Origin: Escallonia rubra
Taxonomy: Eukaryota; Streptophyta; Magnoliopsida; Escalloniales; Escalloniaceae
DNA length: 64,000 bases
Assembly (NCBI GenBank): GCA_033065855.1
Contig: JAVXUO010000724.1
Location: forward strand, 62,001-126,000
Reading direction: 5' to 3'
The notes beneath the pieces are model-generated. The model made no database searches. It had not been told where the DNA came from and saw only the letters and a program-made list of their open reading frames with translations. A program made the position numbers and the translations under genes. Below are positions 38,765 through 47,887 of this stretch, in pieces. Numbering within the stretch: position 1 is the stretch's first letter; every line of letters starts with the position of its first letter.

Positions 38765-39980
38765 CCTTAATTTAGAGATGTTAAAAGGGTCGGGCTGGTC
38801 CGGCCCGGCCCTCCAGTAAACAGTAGCGGCCCTAAAATAAAGGGTTTTGGACCTGGGCTTGGACTAGGCCGAGGTTTCACCCAAAACAGCCCGGGTCAGG
38901 CCTGGCCCGAAAAGCCTGATTTTTTGCCCGACCCGAAAAACCCAAATTCAGCCCGAAATTGGCCCGGTTTTGGCCCTATTTTAGGCCTTTTTATGGCCCT
39001 AAAGTGGGCTGGCCCATTTTATTTCAAAAATTGTTTTCCCTCCCCTTTTCCCCCCAACGGCCATATTCTTTATTGTTTTCTTTAATATCTATGTTTTTCT
39101 CTAATATCTATGTTTTCTTTGATATGATTTTGGATATTGATCACTCAGGTCTATGCAAATTTTTGTCCGCCTAAGAATTCTTTATTGTTTTATCCATCAA
39201 ATCTTAGCTTTTTTATTAATCTTTGTTCCTAACCTATTCGGATCGTACCCAAGGGCACACTAGGGGTCCCGCTTCGCACGAACACGTCGACATTGTCAAC
39301 AGTCAATTTTCCAACGGATCAAACCAGTCAGCCCCCGCGCACCCAAGACACGTGTTTTTCTTGCTTCACGCGCTTCATGCGCGACTTAGACATTTTATTT
39401 TACATCAACGTGACGCACGGGAGCACGATCGTCACGCCGCGACCACCCGAGCACCTTGTCACCAAAAACGTCGACGGACGACGCAATCGGAGCAACGGGG
39501 TCAAGGGGCAAAGGCCTTGGCCAACCCCATGGGGTCGGCCTCGGCCTCCCCCAAGGCCATGGGGTCTGCCTCCGCTTCCCATGAGGGGTTGGCCTTGGCC
39601 TTCCCCCCCTGGTTCTTCACTTTTCGTGCAAAGTCCTTTTCACACTTTGTTCCCTTCGTATGCTTTGTACGTAACCTTGGCACCTTGTTCGTCACATGGG
39701 TACGACTCTCGTCGTCACGATCGTCGTGACACAACTTTCGGATTTGCCTTTTCTCATCAAAACACCTACCGTCGGTGCGCCCAAAGTTCCTAAAAGGGGG
39801 GAGTGGCCTTGGCCTCTCTTCATGGGAGTTGGCCATTGGCCTTGGCCACCCCCTAGGGTCGGCCTCAGCCTTCCCAAGGGGTCGGCCTCGGCCTTCCCAA
39901 GGGGTCGGCCTCGGCCTCCCCAAGGGTGGTGGCCTTGGCTTTCCCCTCCCGCGCGCATTTGTTGTCTTGAGTCTTTGCAC

Positions 39981-40158
39981 CCTCGCGACGTCCATCGTGG
40001 ATCAACCTCCCGACGTCCGTTCGTCCATCAACCTCCCGACGTCCGTTCGTGCATCAACCTCGCGACGTCCGTCGTGCATCAACCTCCCGACGTCCGTCGT
40101 GCATCAACCTCGCGACGTCCGTCGTGTATCAACCTCTCGACGTACGTCATTCATCAAC
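39981..40158 (+). repeat. 25-26-bp tandem array in the 5' LTR
   Basis: Seven copies of a unit of the form ctcSCGACGTCCGTYCGTGCATCAAC, alternating ctcgcg and ctcccg starts. The matching array in the 3' LTR also has seven copies (46294-46473). Confidence 0.8.
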
Positions 40159-40160
40159 TC

Positions 40161-40537
40161 CGCGACCCCCGTCGCCCGGACACAACTCCGCGACCCCGTC
40201 GCCCGGACACAACTCCGCGACCCCCGTCGCCCGGACACAACTCCGCGACCCCCGTCGCCCGGACACAACTCCGCGACCCCCGTCGCCCGGACACAATTCC
40301 GCGACCCGGTCGCCCGGACACAACTCCGCGACCCCCGTCGCCCGGACAAAACTCTAAGACCCCGTCGCCCGGACATAACTCAGCGACCCCGTCGCCCGGA
40401 CATAACTCTGCGACCCCGTCGCCCGGACACAACTCCGCGACCCCGTCGCCCGGACACAACTCCGCGACCCCGTCGCCCGGACACAACTCCGCGACCCCGT
40501 CGCCCAGACACAACTCCGCGACCCCGTCGCCCGGACG
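40161..40537 (+). repeat. 27-28-bp tandem array in the 5' LTR
   Basis: Fourteen copies of cgcgaccccCgtcgcccgga + cacaactc, mixing 27-bp (four C) and 28-bp (five C) versions. The 27-bp version is a multiple of three, which produces long repetitive open frames on both strands that are not genes. Confidence 0.9.
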
Positions 40538-41235
40538 TCGTCTCCGTGACCCCCGTCACCGACGTCCGGGCATCACACTCCAACACTTCGCCGCGCCCAT
40601 GCGCCGCGCCGCTGATACAGCCGTGCCCCCAGGCTCTCTGTCACACTACCGTGCCCCGGCACCTTACGCACTCCGTCGCGCCCATGCGCCGCGCCATTGA
40701 CATAGACGTGCTCCCGGCACCTTACTCACTTCATCGCGCCCATGCGCCACAATCATGTCATCATGCCCTCGGGCACCACACTCATTCATCACACCATGTG
40801 CACCTTGCCTTGGTCATGGAACATGCTTCAACCCACTCTCCGGAGTGTACATCATCCGCGGGGATAGGCGACTCCTCCGGGACACTATCTCCGTCAGGGT
40901 GCCTGCGTGACTGGCCTACGTGCTCTGGCACTGGGGGCTTGCGTCGGCACCCCTAGGGACTATGACCCCCGGGTCACTCCGAGACGGGAGCAGGTCTTCG
41001 GAGGGCATCGCGCCTAGTTCACCTGGTAGTTGGGCGTCGGGTCTTCCCCACCGCTGCCAGGCCTGTGGGACTCCGCAAGGGCTTGGATTGGAGGCTAGAT
41101 CAAGGGGGTTCTCTGGCCACACCGATGCGGTGGGAGCCAGTCTTTCCAGACAGACAGAGCGACGCTGTGAGGAGCAGGCCGGTTGAATATGCGATCCGAC
41201 AGTCCGTGGAGCACCGGCATCTGTGGACCCCCCGG

Positions 41236-44946: not shown

Positions 44947-45046
44947 GAGTCACAGGGGGCTCCGACACGAGGGCCCCTCGTCACGGACTCGGAGCACTGA
45001 GCTGCGACCATGTCCACTCATATTACCATTGATCATCGACACCACC

Positions 45047-45215
45047 AGGACAATGACCCCCGGGTCACTCCGGGACGGGAGCAGGTCCTCGGAGGGCATC
45101 GCGCCTAGTCCGCCTGGCAGTTGGCTACAGGGGTAACCCTCACCGCTGTCAGGTTCTCCGCGTGTCTCTTAACGCACCCCACGGGATTCAGTAAGGGCTT
45201 GGATTGGTGGCTGGG
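45047..45215 (+). repeat. Partial diverged LTR copy inside the interior
   Basis: Resembles the LTR segment 40963-41100: shared blocks include gacccccgggtcactcc, gacgggagcaggtc and gagggcatcgcgcctag, and aagggcttggattgg. It lies between the 65-bp array and the 3' LTR, so the element carries a third, partial copy of this LTR portion. Confidence 0.75.
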
Positions 45216-45535
45216 GCATCCGTCATCTGTGACCGCACACCGCTCCCACGATGCCCATCGCCCAAAGTCGCGCACTGCCACCGAATGACCCGTGCACCGA
45301 CTCCACAATCGCGTTCCTGCGCCCCATCGTCGTGCCCTTATGTCAACGCCCAAGCATTCTAAGGTCTCAATAGGTGCTGCACGAGGTTGCTCGAGCCACC
45401 TACTTTTCACCTTCGTCATTCAGAAACGACGTCAGCAACTCTCCGGCCAAAGAACATCAAAAATTATTTCAAGTGTTTATGCGTGCGGCGCCCGCTCGGG
45501 TCGCCCCTCCGCGCACACCACACGCAGGGGGCTTA

Positions 45536-47887
45536 TGTTCCCAACCTACTCTGGTCGTACCCAAGGGCCCAATAGGGGTCCCATCTCGCGCGAACACGTC
45601 GACATTGTCAACGGTCAATTGTGCAACGCATCAAACCAGTCAGCCCCCGCGCGCCCAAGACACGTGTTTTTCTCGCTTCACGCGCTTCGTGCGCGACTTA
45701 GACATTTTATTTTACATCAACGTGACGCACGGGAGCACGATCGTCACGCCGCGACCACCCGAGCACCTTGTCACCAAAAAACGTCGACGGACGACGCAAC
45801 CGGAGCAACGGGGCCAAGGGGCAAAGGCATTGGTCAAGGCCATGGGGTTGGCCTTGACCTCCACCAAGGCCATGGGGTCGGCCTCGGCCTCCCATGGGGG
45901 GTTGGCCTTGGCCTTCCCCCCCGGTTCTTCACTTTTCGCTCAAAGTCCCTTTTCCACTTTGTTCCCTTCGTATGCTTTGTACGTAACCTTGGCACCTTGT
46001 TCGTCACATGGGTACGACTCTCGTCGTCACGATCGTCGTGACACAACTTTCGGATTCGCCTTTGCTCATCAAAACACCTACCGTCGGTGCGCCCGAAGTT
46101 CGTCAAAAAGGAAAGTGGCCTTGGCCTCTCTTCATGGGAGTTGGCCATTGGCCTTGGCCACCCCCTAGGGTCGGCCTCGGCCTCACCAAGGGGTCGGCCT
46201 CGGCCTCACCAAGGGGTCGGCCTCGGCCTCACCAAGGGGTGGTGGCCTTGGCCTTCCCCCCTCGCGCGCATTTGTTGTCTTGAGTCTTTGCAGCCTCACG
46301 ACGTCCGTCGTGCATCAACCTCCCGACGTCCGTTCGTGCATCAACCTCCCGACGTCCGTTCGTGCATCAACCTCGCGACGTTCGTCGTGCATCAACCTCC
46401 CGACGTCCGTCGTGCATCGACCTCGCAATGTCCGTCGTCCATCAACCTCGCGACGTCCGTCGTCCATCAACTCCGCGACCCCCGTCGCCCGGACACAACT
46501 CCGCGACCCCGTCGCCCGGACACAACTCCGCGACCCCCGTCGCCCGGACACAACTCCGCGACCCCCGTCGCCCGGACACAACTCCGCGACCCCGTCGCCC
46601 GGACACAACTCCGCGACCCCCGTCGCCCGGACACAACTCCGCGACCCCCGTCGCCCGGACACAACTCCGCGACCCCGTCGCCCGGACACAACTCCGCGAC
46701 CCCGGTCGCCCGGACACAACTCCGCGACCCCGTCGCCCGGACACAACTCCGCGACCCCGTCGCCCGGACACAACTCCACGACGCTCACCATCCGTCGCCC
46801 GGACGTCGTCTCCGTGACCCCCGTCACCGACGTCCGGGCATCACACTCCAACACTTCGCCGCGCCCATGCGCCGCGCCGCTGATACAGCCGTGCCCCCAG
46901 GCTCTCTGTCACACTACCGTGCCCCGGCACCTTACGCACTCCGTCGCGCCCATGCGCCGCGCCATTGACATAGACGTGCTCCCGGCACCTTACTCACTTC
47001 ATCGCGCCCATGCGCCACAATCATGTCATCATGCCCCCGGGCACCACAGTCATTCATCACACCATGTGCACCTTGCCTTGGTCATGGAACATGCTTCAAC
47101 CCACTCTCCGGAGTGTACATCATCCGCGGGGATAGACGACTCCTCCGGGACACTATCTCCGTCAGGGTGCCTGCGTGACTGGCCTACGTGCTCTGGCACT
47201 GGGGGCTTGCGTCGGCACCCCTAGGGACTATGACCCCCGGGTCACTCCGAGACGGGAGCAGGTCTTCGGAGGGCATCGCGCCTAGTTCACCTGGTAGTTG
47301 GGCGTCGGGTCTTCCCCACCGCTGCCAGGCCTGTGGGACTCCGCAAGGGCTTGGATTGGAGGCTAGATCAAGGGGGTTCTCTGGCCACACCGATGCGGTG
47401 GGAGCCAGTCTTTCCAGACAGACAGAGCGACGCTGTGAGGAGCAGGCCGGTTGAATATGCGATCCGACAGTCCGTGGAGCACCGGCATCTGTGGACCCCC
47501 CGGTGACGTGTCACTCCCGGGGAGCGCCACGTGTCGGTTAATGACATCATCATCTCAATCTCTATAAATAGAGGTCTTGAGAATTCATTTGAGGAGATAA
47601 CAGATAACATTTTGGACATTTTCCCTTTCTCACTTTAGAATTCCAGCGAGAGAAACACACAGTGCCCTGACTCTGGACCTAAGCATCGGACTGTGACTGT
47701 CATCGTGTATTCATCTCGCGCCATCGCCCTCGCAGCACTGCCACCCTCGAGTTCTGTCTGGGAAGCCCTTGGTCTCTGCCCTTGTTCCACCCTTGCTGTG
47801 TCCTACATCAACATGCTTGGAAGCTGACGCGGACTGCAGCCTTTGTGGCACCTCCACGTAGGTACGAACCCATTTTCCTTAGCATCA
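45536..47887 (+). repeat. 3' LTR (2352 bp)
   Basis: Starts TGTTCCCAACC and ends TTAGCATCA. The layout equals the 5' LTR, with a 25-26-bp array at 46294-46473 (seven copies), a 27-28-bp array at 46474-46806 (about eleven copies), and ACGT sites and TATAAATA at 47504-47570. The copy-number difference in the second array explains most of the length difference between the LTRs. Confidence 0.85.

Follow-up and report, generated by a model that had tools for sequence, protein, structure and literature searches.

Structure and coding content of the element

The window analyzed here, a stretch of 64,000 nucleotides from Escallonia rubra, contains an LTR retrotransposon at 39224-47887, with paired LTRs, a primer binding site (PBS), and an internal region of 3920 bp. 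Its main parts are as follows.

39224..41615, + strand: 5' LTR, 2392 bp, TGTTCC...CATCA, from full-length alignment to the 3' LTR
41295..41302, + strand: TATAAATA box (TATA box), with an identical motif at 47563 in the 3' LTR
41616..45535, + strand: internal region, 3920 bp, with 0 Pfam families above the cut-off in 43 of 54 ORFs scanned
41619..41636, + strand: PBS TGGCGACTCCGCTGGGGA, 18 nt, exact complement of iPBS primer 2395 (TCCCCAGCGGAGTCGCCA)
45526..45531, + strand: weak candidate polypurine tract AGGGGG, 4 nt upstream of the 3' LTR, putative assignment
45536..47887, + strand: 3' LTR, 2352 bp, from full-length alignment to the 5' LTR

Both LTRs are in direct orientation with TG...CA ends, and the PBS adjoins the 5' LTR, as in LTR retrotransposons. 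The aligned lengths agree with the 2.4-kb LTRs claimed in the first-pass annotation of this DNA. The U3/R border is presumed to lie approximately 30 bp downstream of the TATAAATA box. The purine run AGGGGG, which is short and weak, was the sole polypurine-tract candidate before the 3' LTR. A target-site duplication was not found at the element ends, where ATCTT precedes and ATGTG follows (three of five positions equal). In the survey of PMC6317226, this duplication is 5 bp in 93.4% of LTR elements. Its absence here is explicable by a recombinant copy or a decayed flank. BLAST revealed no second copy of the element in the remainder of the window.

The PBS was the only match in the window at three or fewer mismatches, and none appeared in 100 shuffles. 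A tRNA-Arg primer site had been proposed earlier, and the site is perfectly complementary to a published PBS primer; it is of the tRNA-Arg type, and we take the isoacceptor to be tRNA-Arg(CCG). The sequence of primer 2395 is given in the primer table of PMC9245474. One IMG/VR contig also matched the PBS; its match, which falls within a 733-aa ORF span, was judged to be due to chance, and no part of the contig matches the window. By eye, the contig resembles a bacterial phage contig. Retrozyme identity was rejected because no hammerhead ribozyme was detected in the LTRs when the window was scanned with Rfam at gathering thresholds. The sole Rfam match in the window was a tRNA at 10679-10750.

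ORFs were defined from stop to stop with at least 45 aa, a length that places heavily broken genes (<45 aa) outside the scan, and 54 of them overlap the internal region. No Pfam family reached the curated cut-off in 43 of these and six LTR ORFs; the other 11 sit in the 66- and 65-bp arrays described below. The ORFs scanned contained no RT, aRH, or other gag-pol domain, and the antisense ORFs scanned gave no match to PF04195 (TRP28). This supports the earlier statement that the element has almost no coding sequence, and the profile search for gag-pol, which had been named as the check able to refute it, left it standing. Sub-cut-off matches of array ORFs (DUF7640, RBD_DEAH11, DUF959, and YjcB) and a TgpA_N match in one non-array ORF (E 0.14) were rejected as chance. 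Residues 215-393 of an LTR-touching ORF had no protein relatives among the best 7995 candidates scored, and a second such ORF had none among 1358 candidates. LTRs around a non-coding internal region are the structure of the LARD/TRIM class. The border between TRIM and LARD is set at 4 kb in PMC9033089, and the internal region here (3920 bp) falls slightly short of it.

Tandem arrays and mosaic divergence of the LTRs

Tandem Repeats Finder identified five array types in the element, three of which (23, 25, and 27/28 bp) occur in U3 of both LTRs.

39856..39945, + strand: 23-bp array, U3 of the 5' LTR
39981..40174, + strand: 25-bp array, U3 of the 5' LTR, with GACGTC cores
40155..40536, + strand: 27/28-bp array, U3 of the 5' LTR, 14 units
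46168..46240, + strand: 23-bp array, U3 of the 3' LTR
46294..46487, + strand: 25-bp array, U3 of the 3' LTR
46468..46782, + strand: 27/28-bp array, U3 of the 3' LTR, 11 units and a 12-nt partial unit

The first-pass annotation had counted at least four types (25-26, 27-28, 66, and 65 bp) and had placed arrays in the LTRs as well as in the 3' untranslated region; both locations were recovered, and the 23-bp type is additional.

Transcription factors of the bZIP-like kind bind ACGT/GACGTC motifs, and the U3 arrays could be repeated enhancers that are kept for raising transcription. In U3 of the 5' LTR, eight GACGTC sites were counted where shuffles averaged 1.24, and none of 200 shuffles reached eight; the internal 66-bp array has 18 ACGT sites, compared with 2.54 in shuffles. 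However, these counts are inflated by one repeated unit and are not independent, and ACGT is absent from the 27- and 65-bp arrays. We consider this explanation improbable.

Alignment of the two LTRs divided them into blocks of different divergence (5' LTR coordinates).

39224-40540: diverged block, 85 differences in 1270 sites
40541..41329, + strand: near-identical block, 3 differences in 789 sites
41330-41395: short hyperdiverged block, 12 differences in 66 sites
41396-41615: near-identical block, 1 difference in 220 sites

The LTR pair is thus a mosaic with 6.7% versus 0.4% divergence (Fisher p about 4e-15 for 85/1270 vs 3/789). As to methylation decay as a possible cause of this divergence, sites in CpG context in 39224-40540 differed only mildly more often (31/332) than others (54/938). 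Dating by LTR divergence was rejected, as the blocks give K values of 0.076 and 0.005; with this mosaic and no target-site duplication seen, the copy is not datable. Blocks of one LTR pair that differ more than 10-fold in divergence are a warning against LTR dating of such elements.

The same mosaic bears on whether the 5' and 3' LTRs derive from two insertions joined by unequal exchange. The order of the 27/28-bp units diverges between the LTRs after the fourth unit, each LTR carrying private variant units, and this, the contrast between blocks, and the missing target-site duplication all fit such a joining. On the other hand, the near identity of 40541-41329 and 41396-41615 is explained just as well by a single element whose LTRs underwent conversion with each other, and the duplication may have been lost through mutation or loss of the flank. 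We regard the joining of two insertions as a serious possibility, slightly short of even, and it is compatible with the main explanation proposed below.

Internal arrays and their relation to U3

The 3' part of the internal region contains the two remaining arrays and a U3-like segment.

43576..44178, + strand: 66-bp array, 9.1 copies; the unit consists of a U3-like GCGCCC...CCGGCACC part and the core CTCCGCGACGTTCGTCGCC
44258..44945, + strand: 65-bp array, 10.6 copies, 98% matches
44954..45212, + strand: diverged copy of U3 (of 40866-41096), with a core at 45048-45124 that is 92% identical to the LTR

Segment 44954-45212 aligned to U3 with a score of 178 (best of 100 shuffles, 78), and 44152-44255 with a score of 76 (best of 200 shuffles, 55). 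The 66-bp dimer scored 81 against U3 compared with a best of 60 in 200 shuffles, which destroy its internal repetition and are an imperfect control. When 30 internal tiles were compared with the best of 40 shuffles, five exceeded it by more than 15% and two by less. All seven begin at 43590-44110 or 45020-45150, and five of them re-sample one 66-bp unit and so are not independent. Matches to U3 occur in unchanged order, first in the 66-bp array and then in the 259 bp that follow the 65-bp array, so the 3' array zone looks like an old, diverged duplication of U3.

A core motif common to the U3 and 66-bp arrays had all 22 of its window matches inside the element, whereas 100 shuffles gave a mean of 0; its pattern was picked after viewing the arrays, and its 3-nt spacer fits the 28-bp but not the 27-bp units. 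When the 66-bp dimer was aligned to the 27-bp array with gaps allowed, the score was not above shuffles (39 vs 48 in 200), so the evidence for a shared core is the motif search. This alignment would also suit a capture of the arrays from pre-existing genomic satellites instead of their birth in the element, as would the 65-bp unit, which showed no LTR homology above shuffles (38 vs best 46 in 100) and nothing above shuffles against the internal region before 44150. However, the 66-bp unit matches U3 and has the core common to the 28-bp units, and each of the 10 TCGGCCTCGGCCT sites in the window is inside the element, in array and non-array parts alike. Capture therefore appears distinctly unlikely.

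The U3-like segment also bears on whether the element is a one-off derivative, that is, an ordinary autonomous Ogre-like copy from which gag-pol was deleted, and not a mobile non-coding family. The single copy within the window, the lack of a visible target-site duplication, and the lack of a domain in the ORFs scanned are consistent with such a derivative. However, the identity of the internal segment to U3 is 83% (best BLAST piece, 120 columns), a divergence larger than that in most of the LTR pair, which makes it probable that the unusual 3' zone was inherited and not made at the locus. This argument from inheritance is not strong, as the best 77 nt are 92% identical, near the value of the diverged LTR part. 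On balance, a one-off derivative is rather unlikely.

Proposed origin and comparison with known elements

The element is probably a Ty3/gypsy-type LTR retrotransposon that is non-autonomous and of the Ogre/Tat/Athila (OTA) kind, with Ogre as its closest likeness. It would be transcribed from its own LTR and primed by tRNA-Arg, and proteins of an autonomous relative would carry out packaging, reverse transcription, and integration. The element itself may have generated the arrays, through slippage or strand transfer in reverse transcription or through later unequal exchange. In one such event, a piece of U3 could have come to lie upstream of the polypurine tract, with 66-bp units then multiplying there and the 65-bp array growing or entering. 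Recombination or gene conversion at a later stage, either among family members or between the element's own LTRs, would account for the LTR mosaic. On the basis of one copy, a family that transposes in the present non-coding form is putative, and so are the spread of the arrays by every retrotransposition, as proposed earlier, and the formation of satellites by the units elsewhere; effects of the arrays on transcription or satellite birth are speculative. The U3 pattern had no matches in viral or prokaryotic contigs, where none are expected, and this result is uninformative.

A more specific and doubtful extension is a coding-free Ogre-like family with U3 as a repeat factory. U3 segments would be re-copied by strand transfer into the 3' untranslated zone, multiply into new monomers, and be exchanged back with U3, and each insertion would deposit several evolving array types. 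If true, U3 duplication followed by amplification would be a concrete route to the hypervariable 3' arrays of Tat elements, whose origin in this lineage is called undetermined in PMC7004042. The array zone in U3 order and the 66-bp unit that joins U3-like sequence with the LTR array core allow relatives to be used to test a mechanism in which U3 was duplicated upstream of the polypurine tract. Such elements are known seedbeds of satellite DNA, and the present copy is instructive rather than revolutionary.

The tRNA-Arg priming, the 3' arrays, and LTRs whose length falls within the range of Ogre make a Tat/Ogre-like affinity plausible by analogy. The PBS matches the tRNA-Arg type of Ogre in sequence, and both internal arrays (66 and 65 bp) are close to the 3' LTR, as in Ogre/Tat elements with arrays between the coding region and the 3' LTR. 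In Medicago, the tRNA-Arg type is reported in four families, all Gypsy, with Mtr57/Ogre1 among its users (PMC2533021), and non-chromoviruses are described as using mainly Ala, Arg, Asp, Lys, and Trp tRNAs and no tRNA-Met (PMC6317226). Membership of Ogre (Tat clade) is based on RT/RH/INT phylogeny and an aRH between RH and INT (PMC6317226); these domains were not detected in the ORFs scanned. The lineage is thus putative, and we call the element Ogre-like and not a member. Of the earlier label "pol-less Tat/Ogre-like", the first part agrees with the domain search, and the second is plausible as a resemblance, not as a phylogenetic placement. In titles and abstract openings of the open PMC literature, we found no account of Escallonia retrotransposons.

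Tandem arrays near the 3' LTR are described as common, not universal, in the Tat lineage (PMC7004042). The same source describes non-autonomous, array-bearing Ogres without pol in Lathyrus sativus, so the general idea is known and not new here. The Lathyrus Ogres with FabTR-54 and FabTR-57 share with the present element the lack of pol and short 3' arrays that can expand into satellites; in contrast, GAG was detected near their arrays, whereas no gag was found here, and their association was seen over many reads, with arrays downstream of coding regions, whereas here arrays are also in the LTRs. Pea Ogre and Medicago Mtr57 have a tRNA-Arg PBS, as here (PMC2533021 and PMC2206039). The LTRs of two Medicago Ogre families are 3529 and 2435 bp (PMC2533021), compared with 2392/2352 bp here. 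Unlike the present element, Ogres of 16.6 and 18.8 kb (Medicago) and 22 kb (pea) have coding domains (PMC2533021 and PMC2206039).

Retand elements carry arrays between pol and the 3' LTR in about half of cases, a position similar to that here, and some clusters are likewise non-autonomous (PMC11963269). However, their LTRs (315-1,194 bp) and internal regions (7.4-12.9 kb) both exclude the present sizes, and an antisense TRP28 ORF, not found here in the ORFs scanned, is present in 97% of clusters (PMC11963269). Retand membership was rejected on the 2.4-kb LTRs, beyond 0.3-1.2 kb, and the lack of PF04195 in the antisense ORFs scanned.

Dasheng LTRs are much shorter than those of the present element, and Dasheng has an autonomous partner, whereas the element here has no known partner. 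Dasheng/RIRE2 of rice is similar in being a defective element, and its autonomous relative has the same LTR ends (PMC9033089). The sets with SaazCRM1 of hop and CRM1TR/CRM4TR of maize include non-autonomous elements, but their sources are centromeric chromoviruses, unlike the Ogre-like element here (PMC12371157 and PMC3648361). Maize CRM1TR/CRM4TR are LTR-derived repeats made of tandem LTR-UTR pieces outside the element, and not U3 arrays (PMC3648361). SaazCEN lies inside the LTR of SaazCRM1 and is, as here, an LTR-resident repeat (PMC12371157).

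Architecture, coding content and surroundings of the element

The element is an LTR retrotransposon with the following parts.

Parts and cis signals of the element (window coordinates)
39224-47887: whole element, 8664 bp
39224-41615: 5' LTR
41295 and 47563: TATAAATA box, in the 5' LTR and the 3' LTR, respectively
41616-45535: internal region
41619-41636: primer binding site (PBS) TGGCGACTCCGCTGGGGA, 3 nt inward of the 5' LTR
45536-47887: 3' LTR

The termini read TGTTCC...CATCA, and R probably begins near 41325, as placed from the TATAAATA box. The PBS was the sole match in the window at up to three mismatches and did not occur in 100 shuffles; upstream of the 3' LTR, nothing but a short purine run was found. 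The element has cis signals for transcription and priming, and established LTR biology suggests that the proteins of an autonomous relative would act on it in trans.

We take the PBS donor to be tRNA-Arg(CCG). The PBS and iPBS primer 2395 (primer table, PMC9245474) complement each other without a mismatch. Small RNAs filed as miR5072 (PMC6852985) end in the same letters as the PBS-matching sequence and, as these letters include a final CCA, may represent a tRNA 3' end.

The first-pass annotation called the element Tat/Ogre-like, and the tRNA-Arg-type PBS and the LTR length agree with this. A PBS complementary to tRNAArg was termed Ogre-specific (PMC2206039), and PMC2533021 assigns tRNA-Arg to four Gypsy families and no Copia family, with LTRs of 3529 and 2435 bp in its two Ogre families. 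Non-chromoviruses prime mainly with Ala, Arg, Asp, Lys and Trp, not Met (PMC6317226). Retand, with LTRs of 315-1,194 bp (PMC11963269), fits the element poorly. However, lineages are set primarily by RT, RH and INT phylogeny, and the aRH domain marks Tat (PMC6317226). As none of these four domains was found among the scanned ORFs, Ogre-like, by resemblance only, is the most that can be claimed.

Fifty-four ORFs, delimited stop to stop and 45 aa or longer, overlap the internal region. None of 43 of these, nor of six LTR ORFs, matched Pfam, gag-pol families included, at the curated cut-off, in agreement with the description of the element as almost coding-free; the other 11 lie within the 66- and 65-bp arrays, outside the scan, and shorter, heavily broken remnants fall below the 45-aa limit. 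In the internal segment 42416-43415, C+T makes up 67-76% of the + strand, a pyrimidine richness that alone keeps frames open. Directly past the PBS leader, a 27-codon ORF with a basic start (41683-41766, +) resembles by eye the start of a retrotransposon gag; the enclosing ORF (41611-41766) had no Pfam match.

Outside the element, 13 distinct ORFs were scanned and none matched a retroelement family.

Genes and gene fragments around the element
10679-10750, +: tRNA-Asp(GTC) gene
12137-12559, -: O-fucosyltransferase fragment (PF10250, 5.8e-33)
26498-27160, +: LysM-domain protein exon (Pfam LysM, 4.7e-24)
36021-37169, -: DUF1668/kelch gene, intact-looking

The LysM exon presumably resembles plant LYM/CEBiP-type chitin receptors. 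With the DUF1668/kelch gene as query, five relatives scored E <= 0.001: four belong to Escallonia herrerae and one to E. rubra, and the best shares 91% identity across 82% of the query length. This makes Escallonia or a close relative the most likely source of the window. Repeats were also seen at 815-1104 (GC-rich 31-bp array, 9.1 diverged copies), 50189-50531 (minisatellite of GGTGGTGGC type, nested periods of 12-90 bp) and 60545-60732 (two 95-bp units in direct orientation, matching at 90%, and a poly-C run). Immediately to the left of the element, the sequence at 38780-39000 is GC-rich, of GGCCCG/CCCGAAA type, and looks by eye like a dispersed repeat; no exact 12-bp inverted repeat was found in 38500-39223.

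Tandem arrays and mosaic LTRs

In each LTR, Tandem Repeats Finder located 23-, 25- and 27/28-bp arrays within U3; towards the 3' end of the internal region, it located a 66-bp array (9.1 copies, 95% matches) and a 65-bp array (10.6 copies, 98% matches). These locations bear out the array positions first proposed. Both LTRs also hold minor 30-bp double units. The 27/28-bp array has 14 units in one LTR and 11 plus a partial unit in the other; the lengths of the first four units are the same, the order diverges later, and each LTR has private variant units.

The two LTRs of a new insertion are expected to be identical. Here, they differed at 85/1270 sites in 39224-40540, 3/789 in 40541-41329, 12/66 in 41330-41395 and 1/220 in 41396-41615. 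The first two blocks, picked post hoc and entered as 85/1269 and 3/789, differed with p of about 4e-15. The mosaic would thus reflect either conversion that made some stretches of the LTRs alike again or an origin of the two LTRs from different copies. A target-site duplication was absent when both element ends were compared (5-bp flanks ATCTT and ATGTG); together with the differing unit order, this favours some inter-element exchange, though not decisively. Dating by LTR divergence is invalid for this element.

The U3-like zone

Three segments of the 3' internal part aligned with U3: 44954-45212, past the 65-bp array, with 40866-41096 (score 178 against 78, best of 100 shuffles); the 66-bp dimer with 40588-40721 (81 against 60, best of 200); and 44152-44255 with 40671-40761 (76 against 55, best of 200). 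We scanned the internal region against U3 in 30 tiles of 130 bp with 40 shuffles each. Five tiles beat the best shuffle by more than 15% and two by less, five of these seven being repeats of one 66-bp unit and so not independent. All seven begin at 43590-44110 or 45020-45150 and keep the coarse U3 order (40613-40778, then 40939-41124); tiles of the 65-bp array had no U3 match.

U3 has its own diverged GCGCCC...CCGGCACC-type repeats (40586-40662 against 40671-40750, score 71 without shuffle control). The core CTCCGCGAC-NNN-CGTCGCC, at up to two mismatches, occurred 22 times in the window, always in the 27/28-bp or 66-bp arrays or just 3' of the former. However, the 66-bp dimer scored no better than shuffles in gapped alignment with the 27-bp array, which counts against a shared core.

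From these alignments, we read the zone as the probable product of an old event in which U3 was duplicated into the 3' untranslated part of the element, although copying may have run in reverse, from the zone to U3. If U3 was the source, 66-bp units would have multiplied in the duplicated zone after the copying, and the 65-bp array would then have entered it or grown within it.

Comparison with known elements

The initial observation was correct and the first reading of the element largely reasonable, and coding-free Ogre-like elements are a known kind; what is unusual here is that arrays in the LTRs occur together with a U3-like array zone, a combination that points to an origin of 3' arrays open to testing. 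No second LTR or internal-region match was found elsewhere within the 64-kb window; the element is known from one locus, and our conclusions are single-locus inference.

In Vaccinium, the solo-LTR Gypsy-2_VMa, near an Ogre family, is similar to the satellite VaccSat1 (PMC7290377). Dasheng parallels the element as a defective retrotransposon with a relative, RIRE2 (PMC9033089). Hop SaazCRM1 has repeats embedded in its LTR, as the element does, and the same source describes non-autonomous CRMs without RT, RH and INT (PMC12371157). The Lathyrus Ogres are likewise parallel, being pol-less with arrays; PMC7004042 cites the hypothesis that arrays are born when co-packaged copies undergo illegitimate recombination or abnormal strand transfer, and calls the mechanism undetermined.
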